Of a stretch of 30,983 nt of DNA, positions 2,122 to 18,691 are shown in pieces. The position numbers and the translations under genes are program-made. Below the pieces are notes generated by a model. The model made no database searches. It was not told where the DNA came from and was given only the letters and a program-made list of their open reading frames with translations. This stretch comes from a virus: IMG/VR virus record IMGVR_UViG_3300030329_004822, positions 1-30,983 of that record. One strand, 5' to 3'. The stretch's first letter is position 1, and each line of letters opens with the position of its first letter.

Positions 2122-3894
2122 TTAAATTTGGCCCCATTCATCTTGTCCAAGATTATTTCCTAATCTAATTCCCTCTCTTATTCTTGGTATGATTTCACTT
2201 TCAACCATATCTTCTGTCATCATAGGATTATTAAGATTAATAGTTATATTTCCATTTTGTGGACCACTGACATTAGGGTCATCTGCAAGAGGAGTGATTT
2301 GTACATGCTCCTTCCCACTAGGGTTATCCCCTACCATTATCATTTGTGGACCATCTGTAACAAAGTCACCACCTGTTGCAAACTTGGTAACTTGATTTGC
2401 TAATGCTGTTGCTGCTGCAAAGGCTGTTGCACCTGCAATGGCACCTACAACAGGACCCCCTCTTTCAACCCCCCATTTATATGCTTTAACTGCTGATGCT
2501 GCTGCTGCCCTAAATGCTTCTTTATAATCTTCAAGTTTTTTTGCTTCTGCACTATCTTGGAGTGAATTTATTAATTTTTTTTGTGCTTTAGCCCCTTCTT
2601 CTAATAATTTTTTCTGTTTTTTTTGTGATTCAGTAGTTGCATCTTCACCATCTTTAGTTGCATCAGTTTGCCCTGTAATTAACTTAGTTCTTTGTAATTC
2701 CAGCCCATTAATTTTTGCAAGTATGACTGAGATGTTTAGTAGTGCTTCTTCTTCTGTACTTAGATTGTCTAATTGCCCTTCTTGAGAAATACCTAATTCA
2801 TCATTAATTTGTTTTTTTCTTTCTTGCATCTCATTGTGTACATGCAACATATAGTTTGCATCTCCTGCAAGACCCACAGTCATATTCCCTTGTTCAATCT
2901 GTATTTTTTCTAACTCAAGAGATTTCCTTCTCTCATCTGTCATGCCAAGTTCTATGGCTCCAATTTCTTCACCTAATTTTTTTCTTTCTTTGGATATTTC
3001 TACTAATCTATCTTCAATAGCCTGTGCATCAAGTCCTGTTTTATTAACATCTTTTAATTCCTTATTTAGAATTTTAATATCTCTATCAAGTTGTAAGTTT
3101 TTCAATCTTAATAATGATTCGCCTTCTACCCCTAGATTCTCTAATTCTCTTATAGTTGTTTCTAAATCTGTTTCTGTGAGTTCCCTGAAAAAATTACTTG
3201 CATTTTCTGCTGCTTCCTTTAAGAATCCTGCAACACTTGTAACGGCAGGTGATAAAATTTCTCCAAAAGATTCACCTGCATCCCCAATAGCATTCTTCAT
3301 CTGTGCTAATGCTCCAGCCATAGTATCAGTCTGCTCTTTTGCCTGTCCTCCAAATATATCTGCTATGCTTCCTGTTAATGATTCAAGTCTCTCTGTGGAA
3401 CCAACAGCACCTTCCACCTGAATACCATACCTTGATAAAGCATTTGTAGATGAACCTAATGTTTTAGACACCAAGTCTGCTGATGCAACTAAATCAAAAC
3501 CTTTTGCTGCTGCTAAATCTAATGTTGCTTCTGTTGCTGCCTTTATTGCTTCTTCATCTTTAACAAAAGCAGCAATAAGTGCCTGTGCTTCCATAACAGT
3601 CTCATCACCAAACATTGTAACTTGCTGTAATGCTTTTGCTTGATTTAAAAGTTCTTTTGATGTTTTTCCAAGTGCTGCTTCTAACTTTTTCTCTGCAAGT
3701 TCTTGTTGTCCAAATAAATCAATAGAAGATTTTATTGCCCCTAGTAATGCTCTTGCACCAAAATAAGCACCTGCTGCCATAGCAGCAGATTTAGCCATAT
3801 CTTTCAAGCCATTACTAACACCTTTAAGTTGTCTTTTGGCCTTCTGTGCGCCTGTGGCCTTAACTTCTATTAGTTGTCTATTTGTGTCTGTCAT
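2122..3894 (-). CDS. Tail tape measure protein
   Basis: The 590-aa protein sets tail length and is carried inside the tail tube. It is rich in Ala, Lys and Glu with long predicted helices and coiled coil. A small hydrophobic segment sits near residues 35-65 (AAMAAGAYFGARALLGAI) and a second near 480-500 (GAIAGATAFAAATALA), as is usual for tape measures. At about 1.5 angstrom per residue the tail would be roughly 90 nm, short for a siphovirus (rule of thumb from known phages). The start overlaps the frameshifted chaperone by 17 bases. The preceding tail tube and chaperones and the following hub gene support the call. Confidence 0.88.
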   Translation of the reverse strand: MTDTNRQLIEVKATGAQKAKRQLKGVSNGLKDMAKSAAMAAGAYFGARALLGAIKSSIDLFGQQELAEKKLEAALGKTSKELLNQAKALQQVTMFGDETVMEAQALIAAFVKDEEAIKAATEATLDLAAAKGFDLVASADLVSKTLGSSTNALSRYGIQVEGAVGSTERLESLTGSIADIFGGQAKEQTDTMAGALAQMKNAIGDAGESFGEILSPAVTSVAGFLKEAAENASNFFRELTETDLETTIRELENLGVEGESLLRLKNLQLDRDIKILNKELKDVNKTGLDAQAIEDRLVEISKERKKLGEEIGAIELGMTDERRKSLELEKIQIEQGNMTVGLAGDANYMLHVHNEMQERKKQINDELGISQEGQLDNLSTEEEALLNISVILAKINGLELQRTKLITGQTDATKDGEDATTESQKKQKKLLEEGAKAQKKLINSLQDSAEAKKLEDYKEAFRAAAASAVKAYKWGVERGGPVVGAIAGATAFAAATALANQVTKFATGGDFVTDGPQMIMVGDNPSGKEHVQITPLADDPNVSGPQNGNITINLNNPMMTEDMVESEIIPRIREGIRLGNNLGQDEWGQI

Positions 3895-5764: not shown

Positions 5765-6205
5765 CTAACCTAAGTTGCTTAAATGTTCACAGGATAAATC
5801 CCACCCTACAATAAAATAATCTTCATATTCCTCATTGTCACTGTCCATATTGAGTTCTAAGTCTCCTATCATAACATTATATGCAGTTGTTGAATCTGAT
5901 AATGACAATGTTGGATTATCATGTACCAATGCTTCTAATATGCTCACTTGATTTAGAACATAGTTCTGAAATTGTTTATTATTTCTATTTAAGAAGTAAT
6001 ATCTTACTTCCATATTAAATGTTCTGTGTTCAGAATTTTTTGTCACATCTCCTTGTTCTGAACTTACAGGAACAACACTTATAAATTGATTTGCCTTAAC
6101 ATCATCATACCAATCACTATATACAGGACATTTCATCTCAGCCATAATTTTACTCTTTAAAGCCTTTAATATATTGGCCCAATTATTTGTATAGGTAACT
6201 GACAT
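5765..6205 (-). CDS. Putative tail terminator / tail completion protein
   Basis: A 146-aa protein of the size and layout of tail terminators. An N-terminal helix (NWANILKALKSKIMAEM) is followed by a beta-rich domain with paired strands (FISVVPVSSEQ, TFNMEVRYYFLN) and an acidic C-terminal part. It overlaps the upstream connector gene by one base and precedes the tail tube, where lambda U-like or HK97 gp10-like proteins occur. The role is inferred from position. Confidence 0.6.
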   Translation of the reverse strand: MSVTYTNNWANILKALKSKIMAEMKCPVYSDWYDDVKANQFISVVPVSSEQGDVTKNSEHRTFNMEVRYYFLNRNNKQFQNYVLNQVSILEALVHDNPTLSLSDSTTAYNVMIGDLELNMDSDNEEYEDYFIVGWDLSCEHLSNLG

Positions 6206-7201: not shown

Positions 7202-8974
7202 CTATCCTAGTAATAACATTTCTATCTTGCTATCTGCTTTTGGATTCATGCTTCTAGCACTTATTTTTGTAATTGTATTATATGCTGATGTTGAATATTT
7301 AGCACCCCCTGAATGTGCTGACAATGATTCTGCATGTATTTTAAATTCAGCATATGCATAATTGCTTGAAAATTTTGTGTGTCCTGTAACATATGAAATG
7401 CTACCGACAATAGCCCCATCATGTACCAAATTTCCATTTCCATCATCAAGGATAAATGCTGATAAATTCTGTTTTTCTTTCCCTGTAATAGGGTCAACTA
7501 TTGTTTCAGGTTCTAAATATGATTTAGGACCATATACAATAACATGTGCTGCATCATTTAATGGAGCAGGACCTGTTGGTGTTCCTTTTAAAATTGGTAT
7601 TGATGAGCCATCTTTTGAAGGGAATCTACCTACACCAAATGGTGTAGTGCCTGTTGTATTGCCTAGTCCTACCACTGTTCCAGTATGATTAGAATGTGAT
7701 GTTATTCTTACATCCCCATTTACAAGTCCTATTGTCACTTTCTTATTGTATAATCCTGATGAAACATCATAAAACTTTTCATCAAAAATAGCCTGTATCT
7801 TAGGCAATACTGCGTTGCCTGAACCTGAGAAACTGACATCATTTGCATCCGTTGTGAAGGCTATTGTTTGTGCTGCTCCAGTAGCACTCCAACCACCTGC
7901 TTGATAGTCGTCAACAACAACGGTGAACGTGTACTGGGTACTAGAATTTAAACCTGTGGAATCAGATGCTTTTATACCTGTTAATCCCCAATCTAAATAA
8001 CCTCCCCCACTATAAAATGGCCCTATTGCAACACTACCTGCAACTATTCCATCTGCTGTATTTCCTGTTGCTCCTGATGTCCTCGCATAAGAAAAAAATG
8101 CTCCTCTTTGAGAGAAGTTTCCATTAGCATCTGTCATACATCTTCCAACATCATATTTCAAATATTCATTCCCAAAGAAAAACTTTAAATCTTCATTATC
8201 TACTATTGCTGCTGCTGTTGAACCTAACAAGCCTCTTGTAACTGTTAACTCATTAGCAGTTTTAGAAACAACGGATATTACTTCTGAGCCAAGCATAATT
8301 AAATCACCTGCTTCAAAAAAATCACCATCATCAACAGTTATAGTAGTATCAGTAATTCCAAGACCACTTGGTTCATTTACCTGAACATCTGCACCACTAT
8401 TATATGTGCTTCCTGCAAATAAATGCAAATCTATATATTCATTGCCACTATTAATATCTTTAGGCTCTATTGATATTGCCCCTGCTGCTGCTTTTGCTGC
8501 TGATTCAAGTGTTGTGTCTAACAAAGCATAACTTAACATTCTATTGTTTGGGAGATATATAAACTCACCTGCTGGTAAAATCATACTGATAGTTCTGACT
8601 GCTGTTGCACCAGCACCTACATCTTCAGCATTAATATCAATAGCATTATGCAGGTCCATTGTTGTTCCTGATGTATGTGAATCATTCCTCCAATCCCAAA
8701 TACTAATCATAATCTCTTGGCATATATTACTTACATTCTTTAATACTACTACTTTAGCACTCTGAACTGTTAAAGCATTTAATCCCTTATCAAAAGATGA
8801 AAGAGTTATAAAGGCATCAGAATTATCTAAATCCTGTGTAATGCTTGATTTTTCTGTATATAATTTACTAGATTCACACAAGTAGTCTCCATCATTTGTC
8901 TCAATGTTGAGATTTATTTTAGCAGAACCACTAAGCCTTCTTCTTCCTGCTGTTGTTAAATTTGTATATGCCAT
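7202..8974 (-). CDS. Large virion structural protein (fibre- or neck-associated)
   Basis: 590 aa, rich in Gly, Ser, Thr, Asn and Asp with beta-sandwich-like segments and no membrane region. Residues about 215-265 (ITDTTITVDDGDFFEAGDLI ... VISVVSKTANELTVTRG) form a compact repeat common in phage structural proteins that carry a short beta barrel with a turn on each strand. It lies between the fibre-like 261-aa protein and the connectors, so it is probably in the virion at the neck or as a fibre. I do not recognise an enzyme. It has its own ribosome site (AGGAAAGG). Confidence 0.6.
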   Translation of the reverse strand: MAYTNLTTAGRRRLSGSAKINLNIETNDGDYLCESSKLYTEKSSITQDLDNSDAFITLSSFDKGLNALTVQSAKVVVLKNVSNICQEIMISIWDWRNDSHTSGTTMDLHNAIDINAEDVGAGATAVRTISMILPAGEFIYLPNNRMLSYALLDTTLESAAKAAAGAISIEPKDINSGNEYIDLHLFAGSTYNSGADVQVNEPSGLGITDTTITVDDGDFFEAGDLIMLGSEVISVVSKTANELTVTRGLLGSTAAAIVDNEDLKFFFGNEYLKYDVGRCMTDANGNFSQRGAFFSYARTSGATGNTADGIVAGSVAIGPFYSGGGYLDWGLTGIKASDSTGLNSSTQYTFTVVVDDYQAGGWSATGAAQTIAFTTDANDVSFSGSGNAVLPKIQAIFDEKFYDVSSGLYNKKVTIGLVNGDVRITSHSNHTGTVVGLGNTTGTTPFGVGRFPSKDGSSIPILKGTPTGPAPLNDAAHVIVYGPKSYLEPETIVDPITGKEKQNLSAFILDDGNGNLVHDGAIVGSISYVTGHTKFSSNYAYAEFKIHAESLSAHSGGAKYSTSAYNTITKISARSMNPKADSKIEMLLLG

Positions 8975-9970: not shown

Positions 9971-11743
9971 CTAACTATATTCAACTTCTATTGCTCCATT
10001 AATCCACCAATAAGTTCTATCTGAACCTATCCCTCCTGCACCTACTGTTCCTGCAACAATAATACAATCTCCTGCACTTAAAGATGCTCCACTTTCAAAT
10101 GATGTTATAGATTGAACTGCATGTAATGTGCTTGTATCTGCATTGGCAGTAAATTCAATCTCCCCTATGAAATCAACAGTAGCATTCCCTATATGGTTAG
10201 TATTTGCAGCAGGTGTCATTTTCCATAAACCCACTATAAAATCACAATCTGCTGTATTCTGATATGCTGAACAAGTAAACTTAGTTACGGTACAAGCATT
10301 AGCAACCACAACATCAACATAGTTAAAAGTTGCCCAAGCACTTGCTGCTGTGTCTGTATAGTTACTTCCTGTTTTTGCAGTGCTTAATCCCCATATCTCT
10401 GAGGATTTATAATAATCATTCATTCTACCTCCTACCCATTTATTGGTATCATTTTTTGGAGTGAATCTTGCATTGATGACAAAAGTTTCTTTTGCTGCTC
10501 CAGCATTATCATCTACATATTTCTTAGTTGCTACATGATAATCAGAAGAAGGTGTATAATTGCCCCCATTATCTTTTGCAGTTATATTACCAGTTGCAGC
10601 ATCTAAAGTTATATCACCATCTACATCTAAGGCTAAATCTGCTCCTGCTGCTCCACTATCATCAACAGTAGATATTGTTGTTTGACCTGATGCCAATACC
10701 TGTATTTTGCAATAATCACCATTATCAGCAGCACTTTCTATTAATATATAAGGGGCAGTACCTGCTACATAAGGCATTACATGTATTTTGCCATTAGTAG
10801 CCTCTGAACCATGAGTTGATGCAGTGAATTTAGTTAAGCCATGAATAAAATTGTTGGTAGAAGTACCTGCACCTAGATTCACCTGAACATTACTATAACC
10901 TGTGCCTATACCTGTTGCAGAAAGAAAAGATGTAGGATTATCAGAATCACTAAACTCATCTGTTAAAACCTTAAATACCATTTCTGCTTTTTCATCAGTA
11001 GAAGAAGCATCTAATACCCTTACATACAATGCTCCTGCTGTCATAATCTCAGGAGTTCCTTGGTCATCATATGCTTTCCATTGTATTCTACCTACATAAT
11101 CATTATCATCTATTGTAGTATCAGACCTTTGTTTTTGGAATACAAATTCAGGACCATTGGCATCATCAGATATTTTCTTGTGTATTATATCACCATCAAT
11201 AGAAAAAGTTAAATCTGCATTTTCTCCAGCCCCATCAACCGTAGATATTATTGTTGCCCCATGTTCTGATGTACTTATCTGAAAATAGTCAGTAGTGCTA
11301 TCACCACCTGCTTCATTTAATCTTAATGAACTATAATTGTTAGCCTCTGCTCCAAGTTCAAAGAAATTGTTAGACCCACCATCTACTATAACTTTAAATA
11401 AATCTTGTGCGCCATCAGCAGTTTGAATTAATAAATCATTTGATACAATTATCTTATCTAATGAGGATATAGTTAAATCACCACTAGAATAGGTTACATC
11501 TGATAATTCATCTAGGGCAGTAGCACCTGCATCAGTTCCTGTTTGCACAGAATCACCATTAACAGTTAAACTGCCCTGAATGTTTATTGTGTCATCTGAT
11601 ATTTGTATAGGTGTAGATTTATCACTAACCTTTAAGAACTTAAGATTTGGCTCCAAATTGCTATCATTTTCAAGTTGTATAGGATTCTTTTTCTTTTTCT
11701 CAAAGATACCTTTTAGGTTTTTTATAATATCAGATAATCGCAT
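9971..11743 (-). CDS. Tail-fibre-like structural protein
   Basis: 590 aa. Residues 1-40 are helical and basic (IFEKKKKNPIQ). There follows a long repetitive part in which ISTVDGAGENADLTFSIDGD and ISTVDDSGAAGADLALDVDG repeat a unit of about 20 residues (sequence T-I-S-T-V-D then D-L). It also has the pattern TGNITAKDNGG followed by ATKKYVDDN, which is typical of phage fibre proteins (the TKxYVD motif lies just before the distal domain). The last 170 residues form a separate beta domain. The virion location and adhesion role are inferred from this pattern. Confidence 0.68.
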   Translation of the reverse strand: MRLSDIIKNLKGIFEKKKKNPIQLENDSNLEPNLKFLKVSDKSTPIQISDDTINIQGSLTVNGDSVQTGTDAGATALDELSDVTYSSGDLTISSLDKIIVSNDLLIQTADGAQDLFKVIVDGGSNNFFELGAEANNYSSLRLNEAGGDSTTDYFQISTSEHGATIISTVDGAGENADLTFSIDGDIIHKKISDDANGPEFVFQKQRSDTTIDDNDYVGRIQWKAYDDQGTPEIMTAGALYVRVLDASSTDEKAEMVFKVLTDEFSDSDNPTSFLSATGIGTGYSNVQVNLGAGTSTNNFIHGLTKFTASTHGSEATNGKIHVMPYVAGTAPYILIESAADNGDYCKIQVLASGQTTISTVDDSGAAGADLALDVDGDITLDAATGNITAKDNGGNYTPSSDYHVATKKYVDDNAGAAKETFVINARFTPKNDTNKWVGGRMNDYYKSSEIWGLSTAKTGSNYTDTAASAWATFNYVDVVVANACTVTKFTCSAYQNTADCDFIVGLWKMTPAANTNHIGNATVDFIGEIEFTANADTSTLHAVQSITSFESGASLSAGDCIIVAGTVGAGGIGSDRTYWWINGAIEVEYS

Positions 11744-17696: not shown

Positions 17697-17776
17697 TTAT
17701 ATAAAAGTAATTATTTAATTCCTCCTCTATAATATTCTATATACTTAAATAAATATTTAATATTTAAAATAATTGT

Positions 17777-17805
17777 TTGTTTATATATATATTATTTTGT
17801 AATAT
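17777..17805 (+). promoter_or_regulatory. Candidate promoter for the plus-strand gene pair
   Basis: TTGTTT (17777-17782), 17 bases, TAATAT (17800-17805). A start about 7-10 bases later would give a 5' UTR of about 40 bases with GGGAAAAC and AAGGAGTAACAA. The region around -10 (TTATTTT-TAATAT-ATAG) matches that before the 73-aa gene at 27143, on the other strand. Confidence 0.6.
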
Positions 17806-17818
17806 TATAGTGTTGTAA

Positions 17819-17851
17819 GGGAAAACAAAAAATAAACAAGGAGTAACAAAA
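17819..17851 (+). repeat. Shared leader, copy 1 (before the 126-aa gene)
   Basis: GGGAAAAC, an A-rich spacer, then AAGGAGTAACAA immediately before the ATG. Three further copies occur (18285-18315 plus; 26850-26880 and 27144-27170 minus). Likely a common translation-initiation and mRNA-end element of promoter-proximal genes. Confidence 0.72.
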
Positions 17852-18232
17852 ATGGAAACAGGTAACAAAAAAGAAATAACTTTAGGTTTAAATGAAGAAT
17901 TAACAGTTGTTATGCCTAATGGTGATAGAGTAGAATTAAGTTCAATAGATATGTCAAGTTATGGTATGAATCATTTAAGTAGAGTAGGTGTTCAATCTGA
18001 TTTTACAGGTGCTGATGTTTCAGATAGAGTTAAAGATAGAGGCATTGATGTTAATGATTTTGACAATAAGGCTAATGCAGTTAATATAACCAGTTCTGAA
18101 GGTATAAATACTGTATGGACACATGGTGTAAAAGGAAAAAGAACGGTGAAAAGAGACACTAATAAACAATATACTGGTGATGAGATAAGATATGGAGAAT
18201 ATGGAACAGAGTTTTTTAATTTCATAAAATAA
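17852..18232 (+). CDS. Unknown 126-aa protein, first gene of the plus-strand pair
   Basis: Starts METGNKKEITLGLNEELTVV. There is no membrane segment or recognisable catalytic motif. Residues 8-30 look like paired strands (ITLGLNEELTVVMPNGDRVE), the middle has Asp-rich loops (DVSDRVKDRGIDVNDFDNK), and the C-terminus is basic to aromatic (GEYGTEFFNFIK). It is on the opposite strand from all neighbours except the next gene and has its own promoter, so it behaves like a moron. Its mRNA should end at the ribozyme cleavage site 51 bases after the stop. The function is unknown. Confidence 0.82.
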   Translation: METGNKKEITLGLNEELTVVMPNGDRVELSSIDMSSYGMNHLSRVGVQSDFTGADVSDRVKDRGIDVNDFDNKANAVNITSSEGINTVWTHGVKGKRTVKRDTNKQYTGDEIRYGEYGTEFFNFIK

Positions 18233-18233
18233 A

Positions 18234-18288
18234 TCCCACTGATGAAGCACCTCTCTTTGAGGGGTGCAGAAACCCTATGGGTTTGGGA
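18234..18288 (+). ncRNA. Type I hammerhead self-cleaving ribozyme
   Basis: All core elements lie in order. Stem I 5' strand is TCCCA (18234-18238). CTGATGA follows (18239-18245). Stem II pairs GCACCTCTC (18247-18255) with GAGGGGTGC (18259-18267), loop TTT, one G-U pair. GAA is at 18269-18271. Stem III pairs ACCC (18272-18275) with GGGT (18279-18282), loop TAT. U at 18283 is H17. Stem I 3' strand is TGGGA (18284-18288). Stem I is the open stem, so this is type I. Cleavage is expected after 18283. The usual G10.1-C11.1 pair is instead A46/A68 (18246, 18268), an A-A mismatch, which may slow it. There is no other copy of CTGATGA with this layout in the window. Confidence 0.9.
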
Positions 18289-18315
18289 AAAACAAAAAAA
18301 TAAAAGGAGTGAGTA
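18285..18315 (+). repeat. Shared leader, copy 2 (downstream of the ribozyme)
   Basis: GGGAAAAAC, an A-rich spacer, then AAAAGGAGTGAGTA before ATG of the 108-aa gene. The 3' side of the ribozyme's stem I (TGGGA) is the start of this leader. Cleavage leaves an mRNA that begins UGGGAAAAAC, near-identical to the leaders of three promoter-driven genes. Confidence 0.72.
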
Positions 18316-18664: not shown

Positions 18665-18691
18665 AAAAAGGGCCATTTAAGGCCCTTTTTT
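18665..18691. terminator. Bidirectional rho-independent terminator
   Basis: AAAAAGGGCC, loop ATTTAA, GGCCCTTTTTT. Ten pairs, with a T run on each strand. It lies between convergent genes: the plus-strand pair ends upstream at 18642 and the minus-strand gene ends at 18696. It stops transcription from both sides. Confidence 0.9.

Follow-up and report, generated by a model that had tools for sequence, protein, structure and literature searches.

Genetic context and structure of the intercistronic element

The window, i.e. the whole stretch of 30,983 nt analysed here, is part of a 32.8-kb record of an uncultured virus whose capsid protein is distantly related (~30% alike) to those of Pelagibacter phages such as HTVC112P. 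Most of the larger ORFs are on the minus strand. Three of these minus-strand ORFs (2122-3894, 7202-8974 and 9971-11743) each encode exactly 590 aa with no likeness by eye, which is probably a coincidence. The order of the head genes is interrupted by plus-strand genes for proteins of 126 and 108 aa (Table 1), which occupy an accessory slot flanked by the next head gene and by a scaffold-like 193-aa gene that adjoins the capsid gene. A preliminary description of this DNA had regarded the genes as a moron-like pair, and their location in an accessory slot inside a minus-strand operon fits that setting. The slot consists of only ~170 nt in some near relatives, and in others contains a single accessory ORF whose strand matches that of the pair in the window. 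These one-ORF relatives carry a homologous promoter-like region at the slot, with positions 17764-17850 aligning at 71-73% with the region before the single accessory genes of contigs L129, L040 and L023. The accessory proteins of these three contigs are different, all starting with MEKQM behind a near-identical promoter region. No Pfam match and only weak PHROGs matches were obtained for the 126-aa protein, and both accessory proteins matched one near-identical contig only, with no match among phage records. As the promoter-like region and a terminator bracket the pair, a plus-strand transcript spanning both genes is plausible.

Table 1. Coordinates of the accessory unit and of the parts of the hammerhead element
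Feature	Position	Strand	Details
Candidate promoter and leader region	17764-17851	+	AT-rich, sigma-70-like hexamers; putative promoter function
Upstream accessory gene, 126 aa	17852-18232	+	Stop codon UAA at 18230-18232
Hammerhead element	18234-18288	+	Intergenic, in an uncultured marine phage
Stem I 5' strand, UCCCA	18234-18238	+	Begins 1 nt past the stop codon
Core C3 U4 G5 A6 U7 G8 A9 (CUGAUGA)	18239-18245	+	Invariant among relatives
A10.1	18246	+	Unpaired with A11.1 (18268); same A.A mismatch in relatives
Stem II, 9 pairs	18247-18255 with 18259-18267	+	UUU loop; in two pairs both bases vary between relatives
A11.1	18268	+	Invariant in aligned family
G12 A13 A14 (GAA)	18269-18271	+	Invariant in aligned family
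Stem III, ACCC UAU GGGU	18272-18282	+	A15.1 (18272) to U16.1 (18282); closing three pairs invariant
H17 = U	18283	+	Predicted cut on the 3' side, placed by hammerhead consensus
Stem I 3' strand, UGGGA	18284-18288	+	First bases of the predicted downstream product
Predicted 32-nt leader of downstream mRNA	18284-18315	+	Ribosome-binding site AAGGAG at 18304-18309
Downstream accessory gene, 108 aa	18316-18642	+	From the ORF list
Two-way intrinsic terminator, end of accessory unit	18665-18690	+	Terminator-like on both strands

The element between the two genes has a type I layout with stem I open, and a check of the sequence agreed with the coordinates, core and stems of 5, 9 and 4 pairs given in the preliminary description. 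Each of the single bases expected of a hammerhead core was present (i.e. C3 U4 G5 A6 N7 G8 A9, G12 A13 A14 and H17), as was the A15.1-U16.1 pair closing stem III (A18272-U18282), which was unvarying in nine family members. The earlier statement that all conserved core bases are present holds for these single bases but not for the basal 10.1-11.1 pair of stem II, which is usual though not absolute and ranks among the most conserved hammerhead features; A18246/A18268 take its place. As U.U exceptions have been published, the missing pair is not disqualifying. The predicted cut after 18283 agrees with the hammerhead consensus position. No stem I-loop II tertiary contact was obvious in the element, in which stem I has neither loop nor bulge and stem II has 9 pairs; many natural hammerheads are without recognisable tertiary contacts (Perreault et al. 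2011, PMC3088659). In comparison to type I hammerheads (RF00163), including the phage and prophage examples (PMC3088659), the element has the three-way junction, CUGAUGA/GAA core, A15.1-U16.1 pair, open stem I, predicted cut after H17 and phage intergenic location in common, and differs in the unpaired A10.1/A11.1, the 9-pair stem II, the U at H17, the absence of a visible loop contact and a start 1 nt past the upstream stop.

Relatives, covariation and the A10.1/A11.1 subfamily

The element was the sole strong match in the window for a type I descriptor. In 11,097 simulated Markov windows of the same dinucleotide make-up, 13 type I matches had at least this descriptor score, a rate of ~1 per 850 windows. 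Chance had been judged very low in the preliminary description; on these simulations the odds by themselves are not overwhelming, and it is the relatives, as judged from their sequences, that decide the matter. Descriptor scores of >=16 were obtained for 228 matches over all fetched loci, many of which had been chosen by hammerhead-like patterns, as compared to one match in the simulated loci. None of the 18 matches from a scan of genome contigs amounted to a full descriptor hit, and a loose pattern with the stem III of the window gave seven further matches that lacked the stems and were judged to be chance.

An Rfam covariance search had been proposed as a check on the element; no hammerhead model matched the window at gathering or relaxed thresholds, even at E 10. 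Since canonical phage hammerheads in other contigs likewise scored below the Rfam cut-offs, this silence carries little weight, and many phage hammerheads are missed by these thresholds. Weak Rfam matches to STnc490, JPX_2 and a snoRNA were judged to be chance. A covariance model was built from eight relatives with the window left out and detected the window element at 70.1 bits (E 5e-21), and the same model also recovered canonical phage hammerheads (E 9e-6 to 9e-3). The element scored 12.7 bits (E 0.12) and ranked second in the window with a canonical phage type I model, which was made from an ungapped set of 15 after a 42-sequence alignment with unequal stem III lengths had been set aside.

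Ten related sites, having the A10.1/A11.1 mismatch, a long stem II or both in common with the window, were found in phage contigs. A viral-contig scan for the mismatch variant and the descriptor gave the family members in L172, L185, L192, L205, L258, L409, L410 and L412, in addition to the near-identical contig L006; these have in common the unpaired A10.1/A11.1 and the closing portion of stem II. All 16 pairs were kept in every sequence of nine aligned members (100% of cells), as compared to 33-55% for slid-pairing controls on the same members. Three pairs in stems I and II change on both sides with pairing intact (e.g. the fourth pair of stem I is C-G, A-U or U-A), and the stem III pairs are invariant. 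The ribozyme is 84% alike across the family and the flanks are mostly unrelated. The fold, the family and the covariation are thereby established at the level of sequence. Core, stems, family-model score and covariation together support the earlier view that the two plus-strand genes are separated by a ribozyme of the hammerhead family, type I, and the element is almost certainly a member of the hammerhead class.

Two of the ten sites were found by model. The element at L075:262-316, on a contig that is a portal-gene relative of the phage in the window, was recovered by the eight-relative model (R1) and not by pattern; GUA replaces GAA in its core, and it is either a natural core variant or a dead copy. 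The fetched loci of related phages had given no descriptor match at the site of the window element, and the L075 element lies elsewhere. The second site, L410:1813-1869 (-), is a second hammerhead in the L410 contig and has a different stem II beside an unpaired U.

Resemblance by chance, or some other structured element such as an IS200-type end or a terminator, is extremely improbable. The simulated matches and the STnc490 hit (E 0.069) speak for it; this hit reached 17.5 bits against a gathering threshold of 56, no transposase was identified among the ORFs, and neither hairpin is followed by the U-tract of an intrinsic terminator. Against it stand a family with covariation and the E value of 5e-21, and the L075 element, found by model, argues that the relatives are not artefacts of selection by pattern.

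Among 183 hammerheads at canonical-pattern loci, position 10.1/11.1 was G-C in 173, U.U in seven, G-U in two and A.A in one; smaller A.A hammerheads also exist, of both type I and type III. Core variation including U10.1-U11.1 is tolerated in natural hammerheads, and U-U is the best-tolerated mismatch as cited by Perreault et al. (PMC3088659). The window element resembles those U10.1-U11.1 hammerheads in an unpaired 10.1/11.1 within an otherwise complete core and differs in having A.A. On sequence grounds, the element represents a new subfamily, characterised by mismatched A10.1/A11.1 and a stem II that usually has 8 or 9 pairs, of a known ribozyme class, which broadens the range of natural hammerhead forms. 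The U at H17 is present and allowed, as had been described, but is rare. Position 17 is C in all eight aligned relatives, and U occurs in only two of 151 type I phage hammerheads (i.e. the phage of the window and L298) and in seven of 57 of type III.

Position of hammerheads relative to stop and start codons

The element followed the UAA of the preceding gene by 1-4 nt at each of the 11 family sites. The gap was 1 nt at nine sites, 2 nt for the second L410 element and 4 nt in L258. The upstream proteins fall into nine groups with no similarity between groups; one of them, in L185 and L409, is an ArdC-type anti-restriction protein (Pfam ArdcN, E 8e-33). The fixed stop-codon spacing of the family is established from these sequences, and the distance from the element to the next start varied from 13 to 91 nt where a start could be called.

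The wider collection of phage hammerheads was examined with mechanically called ORFs. The longest upstream ORF ended between -10 and +9 of C3 in 88 of 151 type I elements (78/117 when counted by upstream protein cluster) as compared to 68 of 784 non-hammerhead CUGANGA sites on the same contigs; the hits are partly related to one another and many contigs were picked by hammerhead patterns, and the counts describe these hammerheads and not phages at large. Type III elements differed, being ~30 nt past the stop. A start codon was present <=60 nt downstream of 169 of 210 phage hammerheads as compared to 34% of random same-strand positions, and the median cut-to-AUG distance was 27 nt for type I elements with a nearby start. 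For the class in which U4G5A6 is itself the stop codon, the excess over control went from ~3-fold at 45 aa to ~7-fold at 80 aa; this class is less certain than the others, since a frame that stays open up to CUGAUGA and meets it in that phase must terminate there. It is conceivable, if somewhat doubtful, that type I hammerheads of phages generally have an upstream stop on or directly before the core, and constitute a class in which termination gates the cutting of polycistronic mRNA and a ribozyme cap stays on the 3' end after each cut.

Arrays of hammerheads were present in some contigs. For example, L397 (2233-9483) contains ten and L346 (1336-6896) eight type I hammerheads; each array is confined to a single strand, with most members a few tens of nt upstream of a start. 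Four different ORFs upstream of reverse-strand hammerheads in L397 (starting at 6005, 7567, 10931 and 11671 in reverse-strand numbering) end in SN-stop, the stop being the core UGA (U4G5A6).

Intergenic phage hammerheads have been published for PaP3 and Bcep176, and the halovirus HF1/HF2 hammerhead (HHphage) precedes a start codon by 13 nt and has a mapped transcript 5' end within 3 nt of its cut (PMC3088659); the novelty that the preliminary description had suggested for a location between genes and a leader role is therefore not supported. HHphage is similarly a hammerhead variant with a core irregularity near a start codon, and its host virus is lytic. It differs from the window element in that the irregularity consists of insertions near C3 and not of a 10.1/11.1 mismatch, and in its association with an early helicase gene and described location upstream of the first of several genes (PMC3088659). 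Prokaryotic hammerheads were described in a review as occurring close together beside small ORFs, with an open role in prokaryotes and phages (PMC6155905). These resemble the present case in that several self-cleaving motifs cluster and flank small, poorly conserved ORFs, with a persistent link to phages; the stop-codon register is a feature of the window's family, with no mention for prokaryotic hammerheads in the portion of PMC6155905 available. A literature search, in which few subscription journals were covered and which is weak evidence, found no earlier description of hammerheads in register with a stop codon or of a subfamily with A.A at 10.1/11.1.

Proposed role of the element and competing explanations

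The role of the element is probably the cutting of a two-gene message, and we favour, with similar confidence, intercistronic cutting that is tied to translation termination and caps the upstream mRNA. Cleavage, the resulting termini, 3'-end protection and ribosome gating are what we infer from the arrangement. The RNA would fold once the polymerase has passed and then cut itself after U18283. In the upstream mRNA, the stop codon would be followed immediately by the folded ribozyme, whose hairpins, together with the cyclic phosphate, would protect the 3' end. The downstream mRNA would start with a 5'-OH 32 nt ahead of the AUG. A ribosome at a stop codon covers roughly a dozen nt past it. As a single nucleotide separates the stop from stem I, a ribosome terminating on the first gene would sit over stem I and part of the core, and cutting would be expected only in its absence or after its departure, such that splitting of the message would be coupled to translation of the first gene. 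Strict gating by termination is possible but doubtful. The UAA could also be retained as part of a moving element and not for function, which counts against the favoured explanation.

With the type I layout, the upstream message retains almost all of the ribozyme at its 3' end, and the long stem II and fixed stop spacing suggest that this 3' end is the selected one. A main job downstream, in which a clean short 5'-OH leader would allow the second gene to be translated from its own message, is quite improbable. This proposal agrees with the proximity of starts to phage hammerheads and with the HF1/HF2 precedent, but in the family it is the upstream stop that is at a fixed distance while the start distance varies, and most of a type I ribozyme remains on the upstream product. 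The weight that the preliminary description put on a clean downstream leader finds only partial support.

The state of this particular copy bears on whether it cuts at all. Mispairing at 10.1/11.1 normally reduces activity. The minimum free energy fold of the window copy favours an A14-U17 pair and one further pair (P ~0.91) that would spoil the core, and on this modelled fold the copy may be slow or in decay. It is unlikely, though to be taken seriously, that this copy is a decayed or near-inactive hammerhead that does not cut and has been kept because its stable hairpin shields the 3'-untranslated end of the upstream mRNA. The strong hairpins (z -3.7), the A10.1/A11.1 mismatch, the U at H17 that is absent from the eight aligned relatives and the core change in the L075 relative would suit such a history; the stem pairs of the catalytic fold have nevertheless been kept, three of them by compensatory change, and U17 is a legal cleavage base, GUU sites being cleavable in trans (PMC9217987). 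We consider self-cleavage by the window copy somewhat more probable than not.

The distribution of the family could also reflect a gene-swapping joint, in which the hammerhead spreads as a short homology for exchange of accessory genes between phages and cutting is a side effect. L185 and L409 have the upstream ArdC-type gene in common with different adjoining downstream DNA, L409 and L412 are alike in the ribozyme and in the first 115 nt beyond it but have different upstream genes, and the similarity of the ribozyme between mostly unrelated flanks is of the same kind. Mere homology would not need the core and stems to be kept, and we consider this explanation improbable on its own; it is compatible with intercistronic cutting and not exclusive of it.

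If intercistronic cutting is correct, some phages shape their mRNA ends by ribozymes and not by nucleases or terminators. The fixed position behind a stop codon, found at 11 sites of one subfamily and for most of the type I examples collected, makes the role of prokaryotic and phage hammerheads, described as open (PMC6155905), simply testable. Two further contigs contained other arrangements of self-cleaving motifs. A hammerhead-like match at L318:576-613 lies within a phage array of 11 tRNAs and may process the tRNA transcript, and L327 contains both a type-P5 twister ribozyme and a hammerhead (1199-1253 and 132-180).
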